Assembly: GCA_021846225.1 (NCBI GenBank)
Contig: JAJZCG010000022.1
Coordinates: 1 to 35,271, forward strand
DNA length: 35,271 nucleotides
Source of the DNA: Pseudomonadota bacterium
GTDB lineage: Bacteria > Pseudomonadota > Alphaproteobacteria > Acetobacterales > Acetobacteraceae
Reading direction: 5' to 3'
Position numbers and translations under genes: made by a program. Shown here piece after piece: positions 20,943 through 30,465 of this stretch (positions are counted from its first letter, which is position 1; the number at the start of each line of letters is the position of its first letter). Below the pieces are notes generated by a model that worked only from the letters and a program-made list of their open reading frames with translations, did no database searches and was not told the DNA's origin.

Positions 20943-21210
20943 CTAACTCATCGGCAGATCCGGGATAAACCCATCATCCGTTCCAAAGAGGTTCGATGAC
21001 TTCAATGGAATTTTTGCTGTGGATTTTGGTGCGGTTTCCCCTGGGGAATCCAATGTAAGCCTGCGGATTTCGATGAGGTCAGCCACCTGAGCGTCGCCGA
21101 TTGGGTCTGGTTGAATGAATATCGTGTCTCTGTCTGGCGCTTTCGGTTCAGGCCATCTCGCATCATCAAGCAGAAGTTCCTTAGCATATCTACCTCTGTC
21201 GTATGATTTT
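20943..21210 (-). pseudogene. Unrecognised coding remnant beside IS5
   Basis: An open minus-strand frame ends at 20943 with about 88 residues after it leaves the IS5 region (phrases DDARWPEPKAPDRDTIFIQP, DAQVADLIEIRRLT, NLFGTDDGFIPDLPMS). The composition looks like real protein rather than an antisense shadow, but no own start or ribosome site is seen, and I do not recognise the family. It may be the tail of a gene cut by the IS. Low certainty. Confidence 0.25.
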
Positions 21211-21741
21211 TCTTGTGCGCAGGCGGATGTGGGCGAGCAGAACCCAGGCGGTTGCACTGGCGATTGTTGCCTCGAAATCCTTAGCGAGACGGCCGCATCG
21301 GCCGAGCCAGGCGAATGTTCTCTCGACGACCCATCGGCGGGGCAGGAGTTCAAAACCTTCAGCGGTGCCGGAGCACTTTACGATTTGTATGGTCCATTTT
21401 CCGATCTTTTCGAGGCGCCCTTTCAGTTTAGGACCGGCATAGCCGCCATCGGCGAAGACATGCCGCAGCCGCGGGTCGCGCGCGCGGATGGATTTGAGCA
21501 CCGCAGGCGCACCCGCCTCGGTCGTTTTCACCGGCTGGCTATCGATCACGCCCGCGGTTGGCGATACCGAGCACAGCCGTCCGCGCGGCGCCGGTGCCGG
21601 CATTAAAGGCGTGATCAGCGCCCATTCGGCATCCGTAAGGTTGCTTGCATAGCGCAGCTCATCCCGGCAATATCGCCGCCGGGCGGTTTCAGTCCAAGGC
21701 ATCGGGACTCCGCCAGTTGTCGCAAACCAACGGAATCGCAA
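21190..21741 (-). pseudogene. IS5-family transposase with two in-frame deletions
   Basis: A 183-residue frame matching IS5-family (IS427-like) transposases in order: YASNLTDAEWALITPLMPAP, AGVIDSQPVKTTEAGAP, RLRHVFADGGYAGPKLKGRL, PRRWVVERTFAWLGR. Full-length relatives are about 260-280 residues. One gap removes the segment between PRGR and AGVIDSQ, a second removes the GKKVKGRKRH region after TTEAGAP. The three catalytic DDE residues (in VIDSQ, FADGG, VVERTF) remain, and the frame is kept. Loss of conserved core parts makes activity unlikely. The right IS end is probably near 21785 (GAACCTGAACG on the minus strand); I found no matching left end. Confidence 0.75.
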
Positions 21742-21848: not shown

Positions 21849-24422
21849 ATGATCCGCAGCCACTGGCGGGCCATCACCCTCCTCACGCTTATCGTGGTGC
21901 TGGCCAACGCCATCATTCTCAGCGGCACTTTCAACTGCGACCCCGAAATCTTGTTCAGCGGCCTCGCCGTCGCCCCGCAGCGCTCGTTCACCGACGCTTG
22001 CTTCGTTGATCCCGCCGTCGGCTTCCTCACGCAGGCGCTGGGGCATTTAAGCGCGCAGGACTGGCTGCACGGCATCATCCCCTGGTGGAACCCCTATACC
22101 GGCATCGGGATGCCCCTGGCCGCCGAGGTCCAGAACGAATCCTTCTTCCTCCCCTTCGTGCTGCTGCTGCACTTCCATAATGGCTGGATCGTCCAGCGCT
22201 TGCTCTTCCAGATTTTTTCCGGCCTGCTCACCTACGCCCTCCTGTTCCTCCTGAAACTTGGCCGCCCTGCGGCCCTGCTCGGCGGCGCGCTGTTCTCCCT
22301 CAACGGAACCTTCATCCTCACCGCCGGCACGGTCGCCGGCACGTTTCTGTTTCTTCCCCTGCTGCTCATCGGCATCGAGCGGGCGCACCAGGCCGCCTTG
22401 GCCCGCCGGCCCATGGGCTGGTCACTCATTGCACTCGCCATCGCCGGGTCGCTCTATGCCGGCTTTCCTGAAATCGCCTATTTCGACGGCCTGCTCGCCG
22501 CGAGCTGGACCCTGCTGCGCCTGGCCCAGACACCCGCCACCGCGCGCTGGCACCTGCTGGCCAAAATCGTCACCGGTGCGCTCCTTGGCATCGTCCTCAC
22601 CGCGCCGATGCTCATTCCCTTCCTGCAATATCTCCAGCTTGGCGATCTCGGCCTGCACGGCATCCTGATGGCCAAGGAAATTTCACCCATCGCCGCAACG
22701 CCGCTGCAAATGCTGCCGATGTTTTATGGGGCCCTCGCCTCCTATTCCGCCATCGCCTTCGCCTGGTTCCAGATCGGCGGCTGGTTTGGTTGCGCCCCGG
22801 TCCTGCTCGCCCTCTACGCCGTGGTCCCAAAACCCGGCGCGCCACACCGCGCCGAGCGCACCCTCCTTGCCTGCTGGATTGTCATCTTGGAGGCCCGCTG
22901 TTTTGGACTCCCCGGTGTTACCGCGCTCCTCAACCTCATCCCCGGCGTCGCCTCCACCGACATCATCCGCTACGCCCCGCTTTCCGTTGAATTCGCGGTT
23001 TTCGTGCTGGCCGCCTTTGGTTTCGACGATCTTTCCCGGTGCGGCCCGGCAACGCGCGGGCGGCTAGCCTGGTGTGCCGCCGCGTTTTTTGTCTGCCTCG
23101 GCCTCTCCGTCATTCCCGCCTGGCATTTGCTGCCGGGCTGGTACCGCACCTATCCGGCGTTGCGCCTGCCAGCGCTGCTCAGCCTCGGCGGCATCACGCT
23201 TACACTCGCCGCCACGGCGCTCTCATTGCGCACCGGCCGGCATCTGCGCGCTACCCAGGCGCTTATCATTACCGGCGGCGTGCTGCTGTTCCTCACGTCT
23301 CAGCTCGGCGGCCTGCGCTCCGGCCATATCGACCGCGCCGGCATCGCATACCTGCAGACCAACGCCGGCCTCACCCGTTTTTACACGCTTGGCCCCTTCA
23401 ACTCCAATTACCCGGCGGAGTACCGCATCGCCGCCATCAACGCCGTGCAACTCCCCACCCCGGAAAACTGGTCAAATTTCTACAACACCAAACTGCTGAC
23501 ACCGCCACAGTCTTTCGCCTACGGGTCCACGATCTTCATGCAGACCGCCGCCGTGCGCGCCAACATCGCGGCGTTTGAGGCTCTCGGCGTTAAATTCATC
23601 GGCATCCCCCTTGGTGGCCCGCCGCTGAACCGCATCCTGCTCTCCACCCCGCCGCCCGTCAGCGTGCCCACCACCGGCGCGCGCGGCAACAATTACCTGC
23701 AAATGCAACCCGGCCAGAGCGTCACCGGCACCATCACCGCGCCGGCCAGGCCCGCCTCCACCATCTACGCCGCCGCCATCACGCTCGGCACCTTCAAGGG
23801 CCGCAGCAGCGGCCCGCTCGCCATCAGCCTCTGCGCGGGCGGCCAATGCGCCACCGGCCAATCAGACCTCACTCTGGCCACTGACAATGCCGCCTTCACC
23901 ATCCGGCTCACCCCGCCGCTGCCCATCCAGCCCGGCACCGCCCTCACCTACCGCATCACCCACGCCGCAGGCCCCGCCGTGGCCCTCTGGCTCTCCACCG
24001 CCCAAACTCCCATGCTCGCCCTGCAAGTCTCCGCCCCCACTGACCAACCCATCCGCGTGCTACACAGCCCGGCCATGCTAATCTATCAACTTCCCAACCC
24101 CGCCCCCTACACCCAGGCCAGTCTTGACGCCTGCAACCTCGTCATCCTCAACCGCCAGTTCATGCAGTCCAACTGCCCGCAACCCGCCACCCTGCTCCGG
24201 CGCGAGCTGTTCTACCCCGGCTGGCGCGCCCGCGTTAACGGCACGCCCGCCGCCATCCAGCCGGTCTCCGGCATCTTCCAGCAAATTCCTTTGCCCGCCG
24301 GTCCTGCCACCATCCGCTTCACCTACATGCCAGCCCACACCCGCCTTAGTTGCGCCGCCGCCCTGCTCGCCTGCCTAATCTGGCTGCTCTGCGCCCTGGC
24401 CGCCCGGCGGCACCGCGCATGA
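21849..24422 (+). CDS. YfhO-like GT-C fold membrane protein
   Basis: An 857-residue integral membrane protein. It begins with a hydrophobic signal anchor, a periplasmic loop with IIPWWNPYTGIGMPLAAEVQ (typical of GT-C glycosyltransferase-like proteins), then about ten more spans to residue 500. A large periplasmic domain follows, and a last helix (ALLACLIWLLCALA) ends the protein. The stretch LLRRELFYPGWRARVNGTPA just before the last helix is the hallmark of the YfhO family. Relatives are linked to lipid-linked sugar transfer or surface polymer modification in other bacteria; the role here is unknown. Upstream is IS5, downstream an IS630 fragment, so it may be IS-carried or island cargo. The ribosome site is weak. 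Confidence 0.75.
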   Translation: MIRSHWRAITLLTLIVVLANAIILSGTFNCDPEILFSGLAVAPQRSFTDACFVDPAVGFLTQALGHLSAQDWLHGIIPWWNPYTGIGMPLAAEVQNESFFLPFVLLLHFHNGWIVQRLLFQIFSGLLTYALLFLLKLGRPAALLGGALFSLNGTFILTAGTVAGTFLFLPLLLIGIERAHQAALARRPMGWSLIALAIAGSLYAGFPEIAYFDGLLAASWTLLRLAQTPATARWHLLAKIVTGALLGIVLTAPMLIPFLQYLQLGDLGLHGILMAKEISPIAATPLQMLPMFYGALASYSAIAFAWFQIGGWFGCAPVLLALYAVVPKPGAPHRAERTLLACWIVILEARCFGLPGVTALLNLIPGVASTDIIRYAPLSVEFAVFVLAAFGFDDLSRCGPATRGRLAWCAAAFFVCLGLSVIPAWHLLPGWYRTYPALRLPALLSLGGITLTLAATALSLRTGRHLRATQALIITGGVLLFLTSQLGGLRSGHIDRAGIAYLQTNAGLTRFYTLGPFNSNYPAEYRIAAINAVQLPTPENWSNFYNTKLLTPPQSFAYGSTIFMQTAAVRANIAAFEALGVKFIGIPLGGPPLNRILLSTPPPVSVPTTGARGNNYLQMQPGQSVTGTITAPARPASTIYAAAITLGTFKGRSSGPLAISLCAGGQCATGQSDLTLATDNAAFTIRLTPPLPIQPGTALTYRITHAAGPAVALWLSTAQTPMLALQVSAPTDQPIRVLHSPAMLIYQLPNPAPYTQASLDACNLVILNRQFMQSNCPQPATLLRRELFYPGWRARVNGTPAAIQPVSGIFQQIPLPAGPATIRFTYMPAHTRLSCAAALLACLIWLLCALAARRHRA

Positions 24423-24539
24423 TCCAGGCGCATTGGCGGCGGCCTCGCCACCAGCGGCCTGCCCTTCGTGCCGCTGCTCGGCATCGAACACACCTGGCAC
24501 GCCGCCACCGCGCGCCGCCGCATGGGCTGGGCGAGCGCG

Positions 24540-24767
24540 GCCTTGTCACCAGGCGATATCGTCATCATGGACAATCTCGGCAGCCATAAAAGCCCAGCGG
24601 TGCGCAAAGCCATTCGCGAAGCTGGCGCCAAGCTCAAAATCCTGCTCCGCAAGGCTGCAGAGCGCACCGTCGAGGCAACTTGGAAACGCATCGGCACGTT
24701 GCTCAACGAGTTCAAGCCACAGGAACGCGCAAACGACCTCAGAAACTCAGGATATACGTCAAATTAG
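24540..24767 (+). pseudogene. IS630-family transposase C-terminal remnant
   Basis: The frame ending at 24767 reads LSPGDIVIMDNLGSHKSPAV, then RKAIREAGAKLK, ILLRKAAERTVEATWKRIGT and the end YTSN, the C-terminal part of IS630-type transposases. The normal LFLPPYSPDLNPIE-type segment with the catalytic Glu is missing between AKLK and LLRKAAER. Everything before about 24540 is also lost. The tail GTGAAAGAGACTC just after it may be the IS end. It is an inactive fragment. Confidence 0.72.
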
Positions 24768-25215
24768 GTGAAAGAGACTCTAATAAATGGCCGGGGCCCT
24801 GCACCGAGATTGATTCAGAGCCACGGTTGGAAGCGATTTGACAGTGCGAGGATAGGCTCGATCTCTGGCTGCAGGCGGCGGAGGCGCATGATCACAGACA
24901 ACGAAAACCAGCGACGTTCGGACTGATTGGTGCTCATTCTCGATTCTTGAGCCCGGCCGATGCAAGTGAGAAAACAAATGATTTTGTCCGGCCGCACCGC
25001 ATAAATCGATGGGAATCCGGCGTCGGCACTAGACGCCCCGCTTGTTGAGCCTGCCCTTGGCCGTGAGGTGCTGCGCAACAATCCACACGCTCATCCAGAT
25101 CGTCGCGCTACAGTGAGGTGCCAAGGGACAACCGATTAAAGTCGGATGCTTACTGGATATTGGGTGCATCGCGCCTCTTTGCCTCGGGGCAGGGATTGGT
25201 AGCTTTCTTGATGTT
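24768..25215. other. Gap without a clear gene
   Basis: About 450 bp between the IS630 fragment and the toxin-antitoxin operator. Only short open frames occur, mostly on the minus strand (one holds MSTNQSERRWFSLSVIMRL), with no convincing ribosome site and no family I know. It is probably decayed mobile DNA. Confidence 0.3.
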
Positions 25216-25231
25216 TCATGATTTATCATGA
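25216..25231. promoter_or_regulatory. Toxin-antitoxin operator palindrome
   Basis: A perfect 7-bp inverted repeat TCATGAT-TT-ATCATGA, 41 bp before the antitoxin GTG. Type II antitoxins with ribbon-helix-helix-like N-termini bind such sites to repress their own operon. It covers an alternative ATG (25228), further support for the downstream start. Confidence 0.5.
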
Positions 25232-25272
25232 TACGCCCTGATTTATCGAAGGATGAGGATTGGAGGCGTGCC

Positions 25273-25503
25273 GTGGCAACCAAGACCCGCGAGAAATTCG
25301 CGACCCAGGTGAATTCGGAGATTTTGTCCGCTGTTCGCAATCTTGCGCACAGCGAGGGACGGCAGCTTCAGGCGCTGGTTGATGAAGCGCTGGCCGATCT
25401 GATTGAGAAGCGCAAGCAGGGCAGGCCCCGTGCCAACGTCATGGCCGCCTATCAGGCGAGCCACGAAAAATTCGGGGCGCTTTACAAAAAGCTGGCTGAA
25501 TGA
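25273..25503 (+). CDS. Antitoxin of a Doc-type toxin-antitoxin pair
   Basis: A 76-residue protein starting ATKTREKFATQVNSEILSAV after the initiator Met. The N-terminal part suits a ribbon-helix-helix-type DNA-binding fold and the C-terminal RPRANVMAAYQASHEKFGAL, then YKKLAE, would wrap the toxin. The GTG start has GGAGG 6 nt upstream; an ATG 45 bp earlier in frame lies inside the operator. The stop overlaps the toxin ATG (ATGA). It should neutralise the toxin and repress the operon. Confidence 0.75.
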   Translation: MATKTREKFATQVNSEILSAVRNLAHSEGRQLQALVDEALADLIEKRKQGRPRANVMAAYQASHEKFGALYKKLAE

Positions 25504-25874
25504 CGGATTACCTGATTGTTGTTGAAGTGCTCGCCATCCATGAAGATCAGATCGAGCGCTATGGCGGTGCCCATGGTGTGCGCGATCATGGCCTTCTGGA
25601 AGCGGCCCTGTACCGCCCGCAGACGGGGCATTATGCCGGTCTGATTGAAGAGACCGCCGCGCTATGGGAAAGCCTGGCGCAGAATAACCCGTTCATCGAC
25701 GGCAACAAGCGCACGGCTTTTGCTGTCACCTACACTTTCCTTGCTATCAACGGGGTGATCGTCACGGCGGAAGCCGAGGCAACCTATGAGTTTATCATGG
25801 GGCTTTATGAGGCCGGGACGTTTGATTTTGGGCACTTGGTGCAATGGCTGCGCAACAACGTGGTCAGCGAATGA
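25500..25874 (+). CDS. Doc/Fic-family toxin with altered catalytic motif
   Basis: A 124-residue death-on-curing (Fic fold) protein: YLIVVEVLAIHEDQIERYGG, HGVRDHGLLEAALYRPQTGH, LIEETAALWESLAQ, then NNPFIDGNKRTAFAVTYTFL. The Fic/Doc motif is normally HPFxDGNKRTA; here the catalytic His is Asn (codon AAC at 25687-25689). Doc phosphorylates EF-Tu and needs that His. The remaining motif residues are intact. So the protein may be catalytically dead, or act only through its antitoxin. It overlaps the antitoxin gene by 4 bp. Length is normal. Confidence 0.85.
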   Translation: MTDYLIVVEVLAIHEDQIERYGGAHGVRDHGLLEAALYRPQTGHYAGLIEETAALWESLAQNNPFIDGNKRTAFAVTYTFLAINGVIVTAEAEATYEFIMGLYEAGTFDFGHLVQWLRNNVVSE

Positions 25875-26401
25875 TGTTTGTTGCCCAGAGAAAATGTAGA
25901 GATCCGCAGATCATTTAACTGGCAAGCCATCCAGGTAGCACGGGCGCGGTGTCGTGGGGGAGCATTAGATTCGATTTTATGCCGGTATTCCGCCCTGTCT
26001 GCCTTGTCTGGGAGCGGGCAGGACTACGATATCATCTAAAAAATAAACGGAAATTCCAGAGATTTAGGCGTTTTATCGATGGCGTTGACGGTGATCCGTG
26101 CGGGTGCGCGCTGCATCGATGTCGCTATTAATCTGGAAACAGGGCTTTTCTGACGGGCAATGCCCGTCTTCATGTTGATAATATTATGGATTTTTTGTGC
26201 GAGACCTTTGCTTTCCCCAGCGCGGGGAGCGGGCTTTTTCTGATGCTGGCGATGGAGCTGGCGTTTCACACTAAAATTTTAAAGCCGGGTCAAAAAGGGC
26301 TTGTATGCCGAAATTATGTGACTACCTTAATCAAAACCGTGCGTGATCAAACCATTCTTGATCGTCTGAATCGCGGGTATAAACAGGTCGGGGGGGATGC
26401 C
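25875..26401. other. Non-coding gap with hairpin
   Basis: About 530 bp, more AT-rich than its neighbours. A perfect stem GACGGGC-AAT-GCCCGTC lies at 26152-26168 without a T-run. An open plus-strand frame runs from 26186 into the cytochrome gene, but its first 72 codons look random, so I leave it out. The cytochrome/dehydrogenase promoter must lie here; no convincing hexamers are seen. Confidence 0.4.
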
Positions 26402-26839
26402 TTGAGAACTAAATTTTTAGTTTACATTTGTAGAGCTTTGTTCAGCGTTGGCTTTTTCAGCTTGATCTTATCAACCGCATATGCAGCCTGTCCGTCAGGC
26501 GGAATATATACTGCCGCGGAGGCCAAATCCGGCTTAGAGGCGTATAATACGAATTGCGCGTCTTGCCATAATGCCGATCTGTCGGGCAATGCGGGGCCCG
26601 CCCTCACTGGTCCGAAATTTGTTTCGTATCTTGCTTTTACGAAAATCACACCGGCCCAATTGCAGTCTTTTATCACGTCGCAGATGCCGGCCAATGCGCC
26701 AGGCTCGCTGACTGCGGCGCAATATAACGACATATTCGCTTATATCCTGTCCTATAACCATTACCCCGCCGGTAGCGAACCCCTCAGCGCCGCAAGTTTA
26801 AGCTGCCTGAGCCTGCTTCCTTATCCAACCGGCAAGTAG
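26402..26839 (+). CDS. Periplasmic c-type cytochrome
   Basis: A 145-residue secreted cytochrome c. The signal peptide (MRTKFLVYICRALFSVGFFS, then LILSTAYA) is cut before ACPSGG. Haem attachment is C52-A-S-C55-H56, and Met95 (TSQMPANAP) is the sixth ligand, making a class I mono-haem cytochrome. The start is a TTG at 26402, after a G-rich GGGGGGG. It is 81 bp upstream of the PQQ dehydrogenase and is the likely electron acceptor carrying electrons toward the terminal oxidase. The CxxCH-type protein lies before, not fused to, the dehydrogenase, as in type I quinoprotein systems. Confidence 0.8.
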   Translation: MRTKFLVYICRALFSVGFFSLILSTAYAACPSGGIYTAAEAKSGLEAYNTNCASCHNADLSGNAGPALTGPKFVSYLAFTKITPAQLQSFITSQMPANAPGSLTAAQYNDIFAYILSYNHYPAGSEPLSAASLSCLSLLPYPTGK

Positions 26840-28627: not shown

Positions 28628-28642
28628 TAGAGGAGACGAATA

Positions 28643-28714
28643 ATGTGGCGTAAACCGATTATTGTTGAGATATGCCTGGGCGCCGAGATTAACAGTTATA
28701 TCTCAGCGCGTTAG
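28643..28714 (+). CDS. pqqA: PqqA, precursor peptide of PQQ
   Basis: A 23-codon gene, 15 bp after the dehydrogenase stop, with an AGAGGAGA ribosome site. The peptide starts MWRKPIIVEI and ends GAEINSYISAR. The conserved Glu and Tyr of PqqA with three residues between (E15-INS-Y19) are present, flanked by the usual MW-KP start and basic end. These two residues are cross-linked and become PQQ. No pqqB, C, D or E is in the window, so this copy supplies substrate for enzymes encoded elsewhere and is tied to expression of its client enzyme. The gene is too short for routine ORF calling. Confidence 0.88.
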   Translation: MWRKPIIVEICLGAEINSYISAR

Positions 28715-28764
28715 AGCGTAATTTATGATGTCTTGCCGCGTAGTTTAGGCGCGGTATCTGTTGC

Positions 28765-28798
28765 ATGGCCAGCCTGCCCTTTCCGGTAGGCTGGCCAT
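28765..28798 (+). terminator. Strong hairpin after pqqA
   Basis: A 14-bp stem (ATGGCCAGCCTGCC with GGTAGGCTGGCCAT, one G-T pair) and a 6-nt loop CTTTCC, 50 bp after pqqA. There is no T-run after it, so it may be a terminator needing Rho or an RNA-stabilising end. Confidence 0.5.
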
Positions 28799-29152
28799 CG
28801 GCGTGCCGGTTGATGACGTTGCCGCCGGCAGGGTGGCTTGATGTCTGGTGAATTGATTGTTTGTCTGGACGGTTGTTCTGTCCTGGCGGCGGTGTCTGAA
28901 GAATAGCACGGCGCTGGCAAGCCTGTAGCTGACCAGTGGTTGGCGCAAAATAAAAAGATGAATTGAATGCCGATCTTGAGCTGGCTGGCTTAACCTTGTT
29001 TCCGACGATTGCGCCGAAATTCGCTGAAACGCTGGGTCTTAGCCGGTAATAAGCGCGTTTCAGTCACTGCATGGGCGATGATGTGATGTTGCCCTTGAGA
29101 CGCCGCCCAGCTGCGCCATCAATCTTCAGGCCGCGGTACCGGCACTTATCAG

Positions 29153-29217: not shown

Positions 29218-29817
29218 CTAGATGGTTAGGTGCCAGCCGAGAGCGAGATCCAAAACAATCCCATATGTGAGATACATCAGCCAAAGGCCCGTGATGGTAT
29301 GGAAGAAACCTTGGGCGCGAACACTGAATGGCGCCCCGATCCCAAAATAAGAAAATATGCCAGAAAAATAAACGCAACTAAGCCCGACGAATAAGATGGC
29401 TACTGGAATGTCACCCGCTTCGGCGAAGACAATAAGGCCGAGAATACTAACGAGAAAAAAAGCGACGGCCATGAAGCCGTTCACACGCATATCGCCTTGG
29501 CGCATACGGCTAAGCCCGATTGCAAACCAATGCACACCAAAAACAGTAGTCAGGATACCAGCTGCATAGAGCGGCGCGCCCTGGAAGACATGAAACCAGG
29601 TTAGCCCGACAAGGATATAAGTCCCACAGAGAAACTGCAGAAAACCGGGCATCCATACGCCATACCAGCCATTTGCCCAGTCAACGGCTGGACTACGCTC
29701 TGGAAAGCCAAACAGCTCCTGCGGTCCATAAATGAGATAACCGGTTCCAAGGCCAAAAAAGGCGAGCCCCAGGGGTACGTAGACCGAGGTTGGAAAGGAA
29801 AAAATTTCAGGCGTCAT
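29218..29817 (-). CDS. Six-helix membrane protein, possibly acetate-transporter-like
   Basis: A 199-residue protein with six hydrophobic spans: YVPLGLAFFGLGTGYLIYGP, PGFLQFLCGTYILVGLTWF, LYAAGILTTVFGVHWFAIGL, GFMAVAFFLVSILGLIVFA, VAILFVGLSCVYFSGIFSYF, FHTITGLWLMYLTYGIVLDL. Size, helix count and the FGVHWFAIG stretch recall GPR1/FUN34/YaaH acetate-succinate carriers, but the NPAPLGL signature is not evident (VYVPLGL stands in its place). It is convergent with the PQQ alcohol dehydrogenase, so moving the acid product is an attractive guess. A TTTTGTATT-rich AT leader precedes the ATG. The family call is tentative. Confidence 0.55.
   Translation of the reverse strand: MTPEIFSFPTSVYVPLGLAFFGLGTGYLIYGPQELFGFPERSPAVDWANGWYGVWMPGFLQFLCGTYILVGLTWFHVFQGAPLYAAGILTTVFGVHWFAIGLSRMRQGDMRVNGFMAVAFFLVSILGLIVFAEAGDIPVAILFVGLSCVYFSGIFSYFGIGAPFSVRAQGFFHTITGLWLMYLTYGIVLDLALGWHLTI

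Positions 29818-30374: not shown

Positions 30375-30465
<91 letters not shown>

Follow-up and report, generated by a model that had tools for sequence, protein, structure and literature searches.

An orphan second pqqA gene directly behind a PQQ alcohol dehydrogenase gene in Acidocella: a candidate for client-linked precursor supply

The stretch of DNA analysed here (35,271 nucleotides, hereafter the window) is contig C109 of an Acidocella assembly of 2.69 Mb (123 contigs, 97.8% complete). It carries pqqA2, a second copy of the gene for the PQQ precursor peptide, which stands alone behind the gene for a PQQ-dependent alcohol dehydrogenase (Table 1). The explanation that we favour, with somewhat better than even confidence, is that pqqA2 would supply extra precursor, made together with the dehydrogenase, for the PqqBCDE proteins encoded elsewhere in the genome. 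The 15-bp gap between the two genes leaves no room for a separate promoter, so pqqA2 is presumably translated from the dehydrogenase transcript. PqqD and PqqE encoded elsewhere would then cross-link the Glu and Tyr of the pqqA2 core, EICxGAEINSYISA, and PqqB and PqqC from the main cluster would complete the cofactor. Production of the dehydrogenase would thereby raise the amount of precursor, which the pathway consumes at one peptide per PQQ; because PqqA is spent in this way, the position of a pqqA gene hints at where PQQ supply is controlled. It is plausible from the gene order that the precursor is tied to its client enzyme in the window, a reasonable reading that has parallels, of an arrangement seen in a single genome.

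Table 1. Features around pqqA2, in window positions
Feature	Position	Strand	Evidence
c-type cytochrome ORF, upstream of the dehydrogenase gene	26186..26839	+	PF13442 (E 2.5e-10), PF00034 (E 9e-7)
PQQ-dependent alcohol dehydrogenase, 568 aa	26921..28627	+	PF01011 (E 4.1e-77); alignment to 6zcv/6zcw; motif positions
GAGGAG, likely ribosome-binding site of pqqA2	28630..28635	+	sequence; 7 nt 5' of the ATG
pqqA2, orphan second copy of the PQQ precursor peptide gene, 23 aa	28643..28714	+	PF08042; TIGR02107; mostly silent divergence from the main copy
Inverted repeat, 14 bp, 3' of pqqA2; possible transcript end, without a T run	28765..28798	+	folding
tRNA-Ser(CGA), bordering the non-syntenic stretch with the cassette	30376..30465	-	ARAGORN; synteny to its right only

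A sequence-only reading of the window had proposed that the short frame is a pqqA gene, and the profile searches bear this out. The frame has 23 codons, starts with ATG and translates as MWRKPIIVEICLGAEINSYISAR. The peptide exceeds the cut-offs of PF08042 (35.1 bits against 21.1, E 1.3e-8) and of TIGR02107 (37.3 bits against 20, E 1.7e-9), and it contains, as EINSY, the Glu-x3-Tyr pair that becomes PQQ and that the same reading had pointed out. Also confirmed were the strong ribosome site claimed for the gene, its distance of 15 bp from a quinoprotein gene (the dehydrogenase ORF, a PF01011 match) and the absence of pqqBCDE nearby: a tblastn search of the window with the PqqB, C, D and E proteins of the host genome itself was negative at E 1e-3. 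With a PqqA-like pattern made for this analysis, pqqA2 was the sole fit in the window among ATG-started frames of 18 to 45 codons on both strands; a PDB search with the peptide gave no match at E up to 1. The inverted repeat 3' of the gene lies in a region with a fold z-score of -3.91 (28711-28830). Terminator-site prediction found no canonical terminator 3' of pqqA2, and the repeat is not among the predicted sites.

A TIGR02107 scan of the host genome (E up to 10) found two pqqA genes, pqqA2 and one at C37:9956, on another contig, where it heads pqqB, pqqC, pqqD and pqqE. The genome search suggested by the sequence-only reading thus yielded a full pqqABCDE set and one further pqqA. The products of the four other genes all exceed their NCBIfam cut-offs (PqqB 376.1 bits against 245, PqqC 382.2 against 240, PqqD 72.1 against 46, PqqE 529.8 against 381.35), and the possibility that the genome lacks pqqBCDE is accordingly rejected. 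So is a second pathway set, because this pqqE is the only genome-wide match above the cut-off. Upstream of the main pqqA, on the same strand and in one run, are genes for a PQQ alcohol dehydrogenase (577 aa), a solute-binding protein that scores just under its Pfam cut-off and a cytochrome c that is below the cut-offs of every NCBIfam model it matched; a gene for a TonB-dependent receptor comes after pqqE. The host has two PF01011 quinoproteins, one per cluster. Each has a cytochrome c gene and a pqqA nearby, and the pathway genes are with only one of them. The claim that the precursor is linked to its client and not to the biosynthesis genes therefore holds for pqqA2, which is alone behind the dehydrogenase gene, but not for the genome as a whole: an ordinary pqqA also heads pqqBCDE, so that pqqA2 does not replace the normal linkage.

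Between the two copies 15 of 66 bases are different (11 of them in third codon positions), compared with only 3 of 22 residues. When as many changes were placed at random the mean was 9.7 residue changes, and none of 100,000 runs gave three or fewer. So small a share of residue changes indicates that the pqqA2 peptide has been kept by selection, though some of that selection may have occurred in a donor or concerned the main copy. Compared with the main-copy PqqA the peptide has two residues fewer, and its core is the same except for one residue. pqqA2 is thus a true PqqA gene and, as part of the best explanation, fairly probably a working second copy in its genome. Among 121 other fetched copies the nearest peptide is that of the main copy in another Acidocella genome, G129 (18 of 21 residues, 47 of 63 bases); the remaining Acidocella copies have 43-47 of 63 bases in common with pqqA2. 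This degree of base similarity means either that the duplication is not very recent or that pqqA2 originated in a different lineage within the genus.

One expectation, that the placement would be conserved in relatives, failed, and by its own refuting test this counts in part against the sequence-only reading. Relatives of the window dehydrogenase at 67-88% identity occur in two other Acidocella genomes and in several other genomes of the family; Acidocella aminolytica (L120) matches at 83%. From the best 14 matches besides the window's own, 12 genes could be read (G319:C2 is a locus not in the set and L058 ends inside the gene), two of them only 52-54% identical to the window dehydrogenase. 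These were read in two ways, as + frames in up to 600 bases behind the stop and as whole loci on both strands, and a PqqA-like frame was behind none of the 12. In L051 the dehydrogenase frame runs on for 501 bases, which makes the true gene end uncertain, and L054 has a Glu-x3-Tyr motif whose frame is unlike PqqA and is not reported by the profile. Nor was there a pqqA behind the dehydrogenase gene in any of 20 loci with at least 1 kb downstream, out of 23 related loci that overlap the 12-gene set (L137-L139 have fewer than 100 bases behind the match). A profile of the fetched pqqA genes, run over 64 loci including these 23, found the window copy and one in L064; the latter adjoins an unrelated dehydrogenase gene, and the next frame resembles, by eye, the start of pqqB.

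Within the genus, pqqA is present in 10 of 38 Acidocella genomes, as one copy in nine and as two in the window's genome only. In all nine the single pqqA is directly before pqqB, followed by pqqC, D and E, and seven have a same-strand PQQ dehydrogenase gene about 1.4 kb upstream of it. (In G141 no dehydrogenase gene was seen upstream of pqqA, where the contig starts 2.7 kb away, and in G143 the only one seen near pqqA is downstream.) Since the main pqq cluster follows a PQQ dehydrogenase gene both here and in seven of nine genus mates, client linkage is usual in the genus. These main clusters (the host's own, L037, and L098-L101 and L104-L106) are like the window in that pqqA lies on the same strand behind genes for a PQQ alcohol dehydrogenase and a cytochrome c, and in the similarity of their peptide to that of pqqA2. 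They differ in having binding protein and cytochrome genes between dehydrogenase and pqqA, and in that their pqqA heads pqqBCDE whereas pqqA2 is alone. At the DNA level only two of the nine other pqqA-bearing genomes, G120 and G124, matched the window dehydrogenase gene; in both the orthologous dehydrogenase is present and a second pqqA absent. The sister genome G129 has the main cluster, with proteins 85-98% identical to those of the window's genome, and no match to the window dehydrogenase. A conserved dehydrogenase-pqqA operon in relatives is thus rejected for the set examined, in which 0 of 12 genes had the arrangement and genus mates are single-copy.

The composition and neighborhood of the cassette (cytochrome c, dehydrogenase and pqqA2) bear on its origin. 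Its G+C content is 53.2%, compared with 61.4% for the window, 62.2% for the left 21 kb, 65.9% for the right end and 60.7% for the contig with the main cluster. Rightward from the tRNA-Ser(CGA) gene the window is syntenic in relatives; to the left of that gene, blastn found no window match in four relatives (L241-L244, at least 4 kb there) beyond 70 tRNA-adjacent bases in L241. The cytochrome-dehydrogenase pair has matches elsewhere in G120 and G124. The low G+C and the non-syntenic stretch beside a tRNA gene make it probable that the cassette was acquired; the setting fits acquisition beside a tRNA gene, short of proof. Either this acquisition or the gain of pqqA by the cassette probably took place within the genus. 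A tblastn search of PLSDB (E up to 1) found no close plasmid copy of pqqA2: there were four records, the best at 68%, and in two of the three inspected pqqE adjoins the match.

The most serious alternative to precursor supply starts from this history: pqqA2 could have arrived with the cassette or close to it and add nothing measurable if PqqE or PqqC, and not the precursor, limits PQQ. We regard such a neutral passenger as unlikely, though it has to be reckoned with. It would account for the possession of two copies by a single genome in the genus (ten of 38 having any, nine having one), for the 12 readable related dehydrogenase genes of which none has a pqqA behind it, and for a cassette of deviant G+C in a non-syntenic stretch beside a tRNA gene. 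It accounts less well for a peptide kept while silent sites changed, even if that selection was partly the donor's or the main copy's, and for an intact ribosome site.

Several other elements lie in the same part of the window. At 25228-25874, left of the cassette, two overlapping frames resemble a Doc toxin-antitoxin pair, with a ribbon-helix-helix antitoxin-like protein (under the Pfam cut-off) and a Fic/DOC protein (PF02661, 50.4 bits); similar DNA is found elsewhere in G141 and G149. Short transposase-like pieces, recognized by eye only, occur at 21190-21741 and 24323-24771, also left of the cassette. Between pqqA2 and the tRNA-Ser gene, 29218-29817 (-) encodes a membrane-like protein of 199 aa that matched neither Pfam nor NCBIfam models at E up to 1.

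Are orphan pqqA genes found near quinoprotein genes in other organisms? Multi-copy genomes were identified by scanning 120 genomes from the family, 387 from the class and 396 from the phylum. The census comprised 112 pqqA places in 47 of these multi-copy genomes, a subset of the genomes and copies found. It includes the window copy and excludes the host's main copy, the single-copy genus mates and a plasmid copy. Quinoprotein and pqqB-E genes were detected with profiles built from loci of this analysis (threshold 60 bits), and a copy with no pqqB, C or E within 4 kb was called an orphan, which applied to 51 of the 112. A quinoprotein gene lay within 3 kb of 9 of 40 orphans (31 had none), versus 3 of 55 copies with pathway genes nearby; the other 11 orphans are the window's and ten whose flanking sequence is under 3 kb on a side, and one of these ten (L092) has a quinoprotein gene 1.8 kb away. 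By PF01011 match counts per genome, 0.49 orphans near a quinoprotein gene were expected and 9 of 39 observed (G012 is absent from these counts); the expectation takes no account of kinship, and in the match counts behind it some genes appear repeatedly. Because five of the nine come from a single family, f147, the nine cases are not independent of one another. Seven further places outside the 112 include three without pathway genes in the stretch (L252, L256 and L258); these have no quinoprotein gene within 3 kb, and L252 has one just beyond.

Of all pqqA copies read, that of the window is the only one immediately behind a quinoprotein gene. A parallel is found in G043, from another genus of the family, where genes for a quinoprotein, a binding protein and a cytochrome c are followed about 40 bp on by a pqqA (L085, 3168-6821). 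As in the window, this is an orphan that comes last in a quinoprotein operon, with no pqqB, C or E within 4 kb; unlike the window, L085 has a different dehydrogenase (683-aa ORF) and its pqqA comes after the cytochrome gene. The L085 peptide passes TIGR02107 (24.0 bits, cut-off 20) and fails PF08042 (16.5 bits, cut-off 21.1). The f147 orphans (L166, L219, L223, L225 and L234) share with the window a possible client gene, within 1.0-1.6 kb, but their pqqA is on the opposite strand from the quinoprotein gene and so needs its own promoter. A pqqA on a plasmid of Methylocystis iwaonis (L240) has no pqqB-E annotated within 6 kb in the PLSDB gene table, which is incomplete. It is in the same stretch as accessory genes of the mxa methanol dehydrogenase and beyond them; unlike pqqA2 it is not directly behind a dehydrogenase gene, and two-component system genes intervene.

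The kept peptide, the excess of orphans near quinoprotein genes over expectation and the L085 parallel count in favor of a precursor-supply role for pqqA2. Against it count the unconserved placement, the nine genus mates that manage with one copy, the majority of orphans that have no quinoprotein gene nearby and the slightly shorter peptide. A wider generalization can be put forward only tentatively, and we think it rather doubtful: bacteria may repeatedly wire the precursor alone, and not the pathway, into the transcript of a PQQ enzyme, and every burst of enzyme would then come with precursor of its own, the window cassette being a mobile self-provisioning form (client, electron acceptor and precursor) that borrows the host's PqqB-E.

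In two f147 loci an EF-hand gene stands between the orphan pqqA and a divergent quinoprotein gene (L166, 7205-7597, -; L223, 6483-6893, -). The L166 protein is a lanmodulin (NF053806, 179.8 bits, cut-off 135); that of L223 has EF hands (PF00036), and the L223 quinoprotein passes TIGR03075 (697.2 bits, cut-off 480.05). An orphan pqqA near both a PQQ enzyme and a lanthanide-binding protein is suggestive of a lanthanide link at these loci.

The dehydrogenase of the window exceeds the PF01011 cut-off (260.7 bits against 26.7) and misses that of TIGR03075, the methanol/ethanol-family PQQ dehydrogenases (418.7 bits against 480.05), so that it can be called a PQQ alcohol dehydrogenase only in the sense of the wider family. 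It has a Cys-Cys pair (163-164), the Glu of GGEW (229-232) and the Asn of TGNP (290-293). Assignment to 'acido-empty-quinoprotein' (TIGR04528) was rejected, with 325.4 bits against 650 and the ligand residues present. In WDYD (334-337) a second Asp is two residues behind the first (catalytic) one, as in lanthanide-type enzymes, and this motif aligns to WDFD of 6zcv. The closest solved structures, 6zcv and 6zcw, are titled quinoprotein ethanol dehydrogenase; we take the protein to be PedH of Pseudomonas putida. By its motif the window enzyme thus carries the lanthanide-type second Asp, and its activity may need a lanthanide. The cytochrome ORF upstream has the heme motif CASCH and a true start that is probably further in; its product is likely the electron acceptor of the dehydrogenase.

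The second Asp leads to another explanation, in which pqqA2 serves a lanthanide- or substrate-specific supply, making PQQ when a differently controlled main cluster is low. In support, the accessible text of one study gives Ser, in a Ca-type enzyme, at the position where La-dependent enzymes carry the second Asp (PMC10409515), and that of another reports that the orphan pqqA2 and pqqA3 of Methylorubrum extorquens respond to the Nd source while most pathway genes do not (PMC11317620). The window dehydrogenase has WDYD and 6zcv/6zcw as its best PDB matches, and L166, from another family, has its orphan pqqA beside a lanmodulin gene and a quinoprotein gene. The main-cluster dehydrogenase carries WDYD too, however, so that the two clusters cannot be distinguished by their metal, and we consider this explanation improbable. 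The last one, that pqqA2 is not a gene but a chance frame after the dehydrogenase gene, has in its favor that the frame is very short and that related loci lack it, and is rejected with near certainty because both curated models are exceeded and none of the 100,000 random placements left the peptide so similar to the main copy.

Spare or orphan pqqA genes in general are already known from the literature, which is summarized here from the accessible parts of the papers cited. Methylophilaceae have 3-12 copies (PMC4109929), Hyphomicrobium five (PMC9851590) and Methylovorus five, with precursor availability described as rate-determining (cited in PMC11317620); the two orphans of Methylorubrum are expressed differently from the operon (PMC11317620). 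Such methylotrophs resemble the window in having extra precursor genes and typically one set of the other pqq genes; they differ from it in that no orphan is described, in those parts of PMC4109929, PMC11317620 and PMC9851590, as the last gene of a quinoprotein operon. A lone pqqA ending a quinoprotein operon was not described in the literature searched, mostly outside subscription journals. The host of the window is not known to be a methylotroph. A gene of 23 codons is easily overlooked: the lone pqqA of Methylosinus trichosporium had no prediction in the genome annotation, although it is very strongly expressed, like mxaFI and far above pqqB-E (PMC3615186).

How precursor and client genes relate varies among the systems covered by these sources. 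In Beijerinckiaceae RH AL1 three pqqA copies go down under Nd and xoxF goes up (PMC10848612), which speaks against the idea that supply simply follows demand. Some Pseudomonas have their pqq operon inside the ped/exa alcohol dehydrogenase cluster (PMC12997753, PMC8546858); the synthesis genes are placed and regulated together with the client dehydrogenase, with a second copy in some species, but it is the whole operon that is beside the client, and in the window the precursor gene alone. With an engineered dehydrogenase fusion in Gluconobacter, adding pqqA alone or pqqABCDE improved growth, this addition being one step of a stepwise design for a strain with higher titre (PMC8102297). The window, with precursor and client but no pathway, is a natural parallel to this construction, and its arrangement makes a clean test case for whether precursor supply limits quinoprotein activity.

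A different kind of extra cluster was seen at five loci (L089, L090, L145, L148 and L150), besides a normal pqqABCDE set in the same genomes. It encodes a pqqA-like peptide that contains DLRLGFEVTAY and has only pqqD- and pqqE-like genes. As far as the available text goes, a pqqADE operon is reported in Hyphomicrobium (PMC9851590) and a divergent pqqA-pqqDE island in Methylophilaceae (PMC4109929), so this cluster may be known already.
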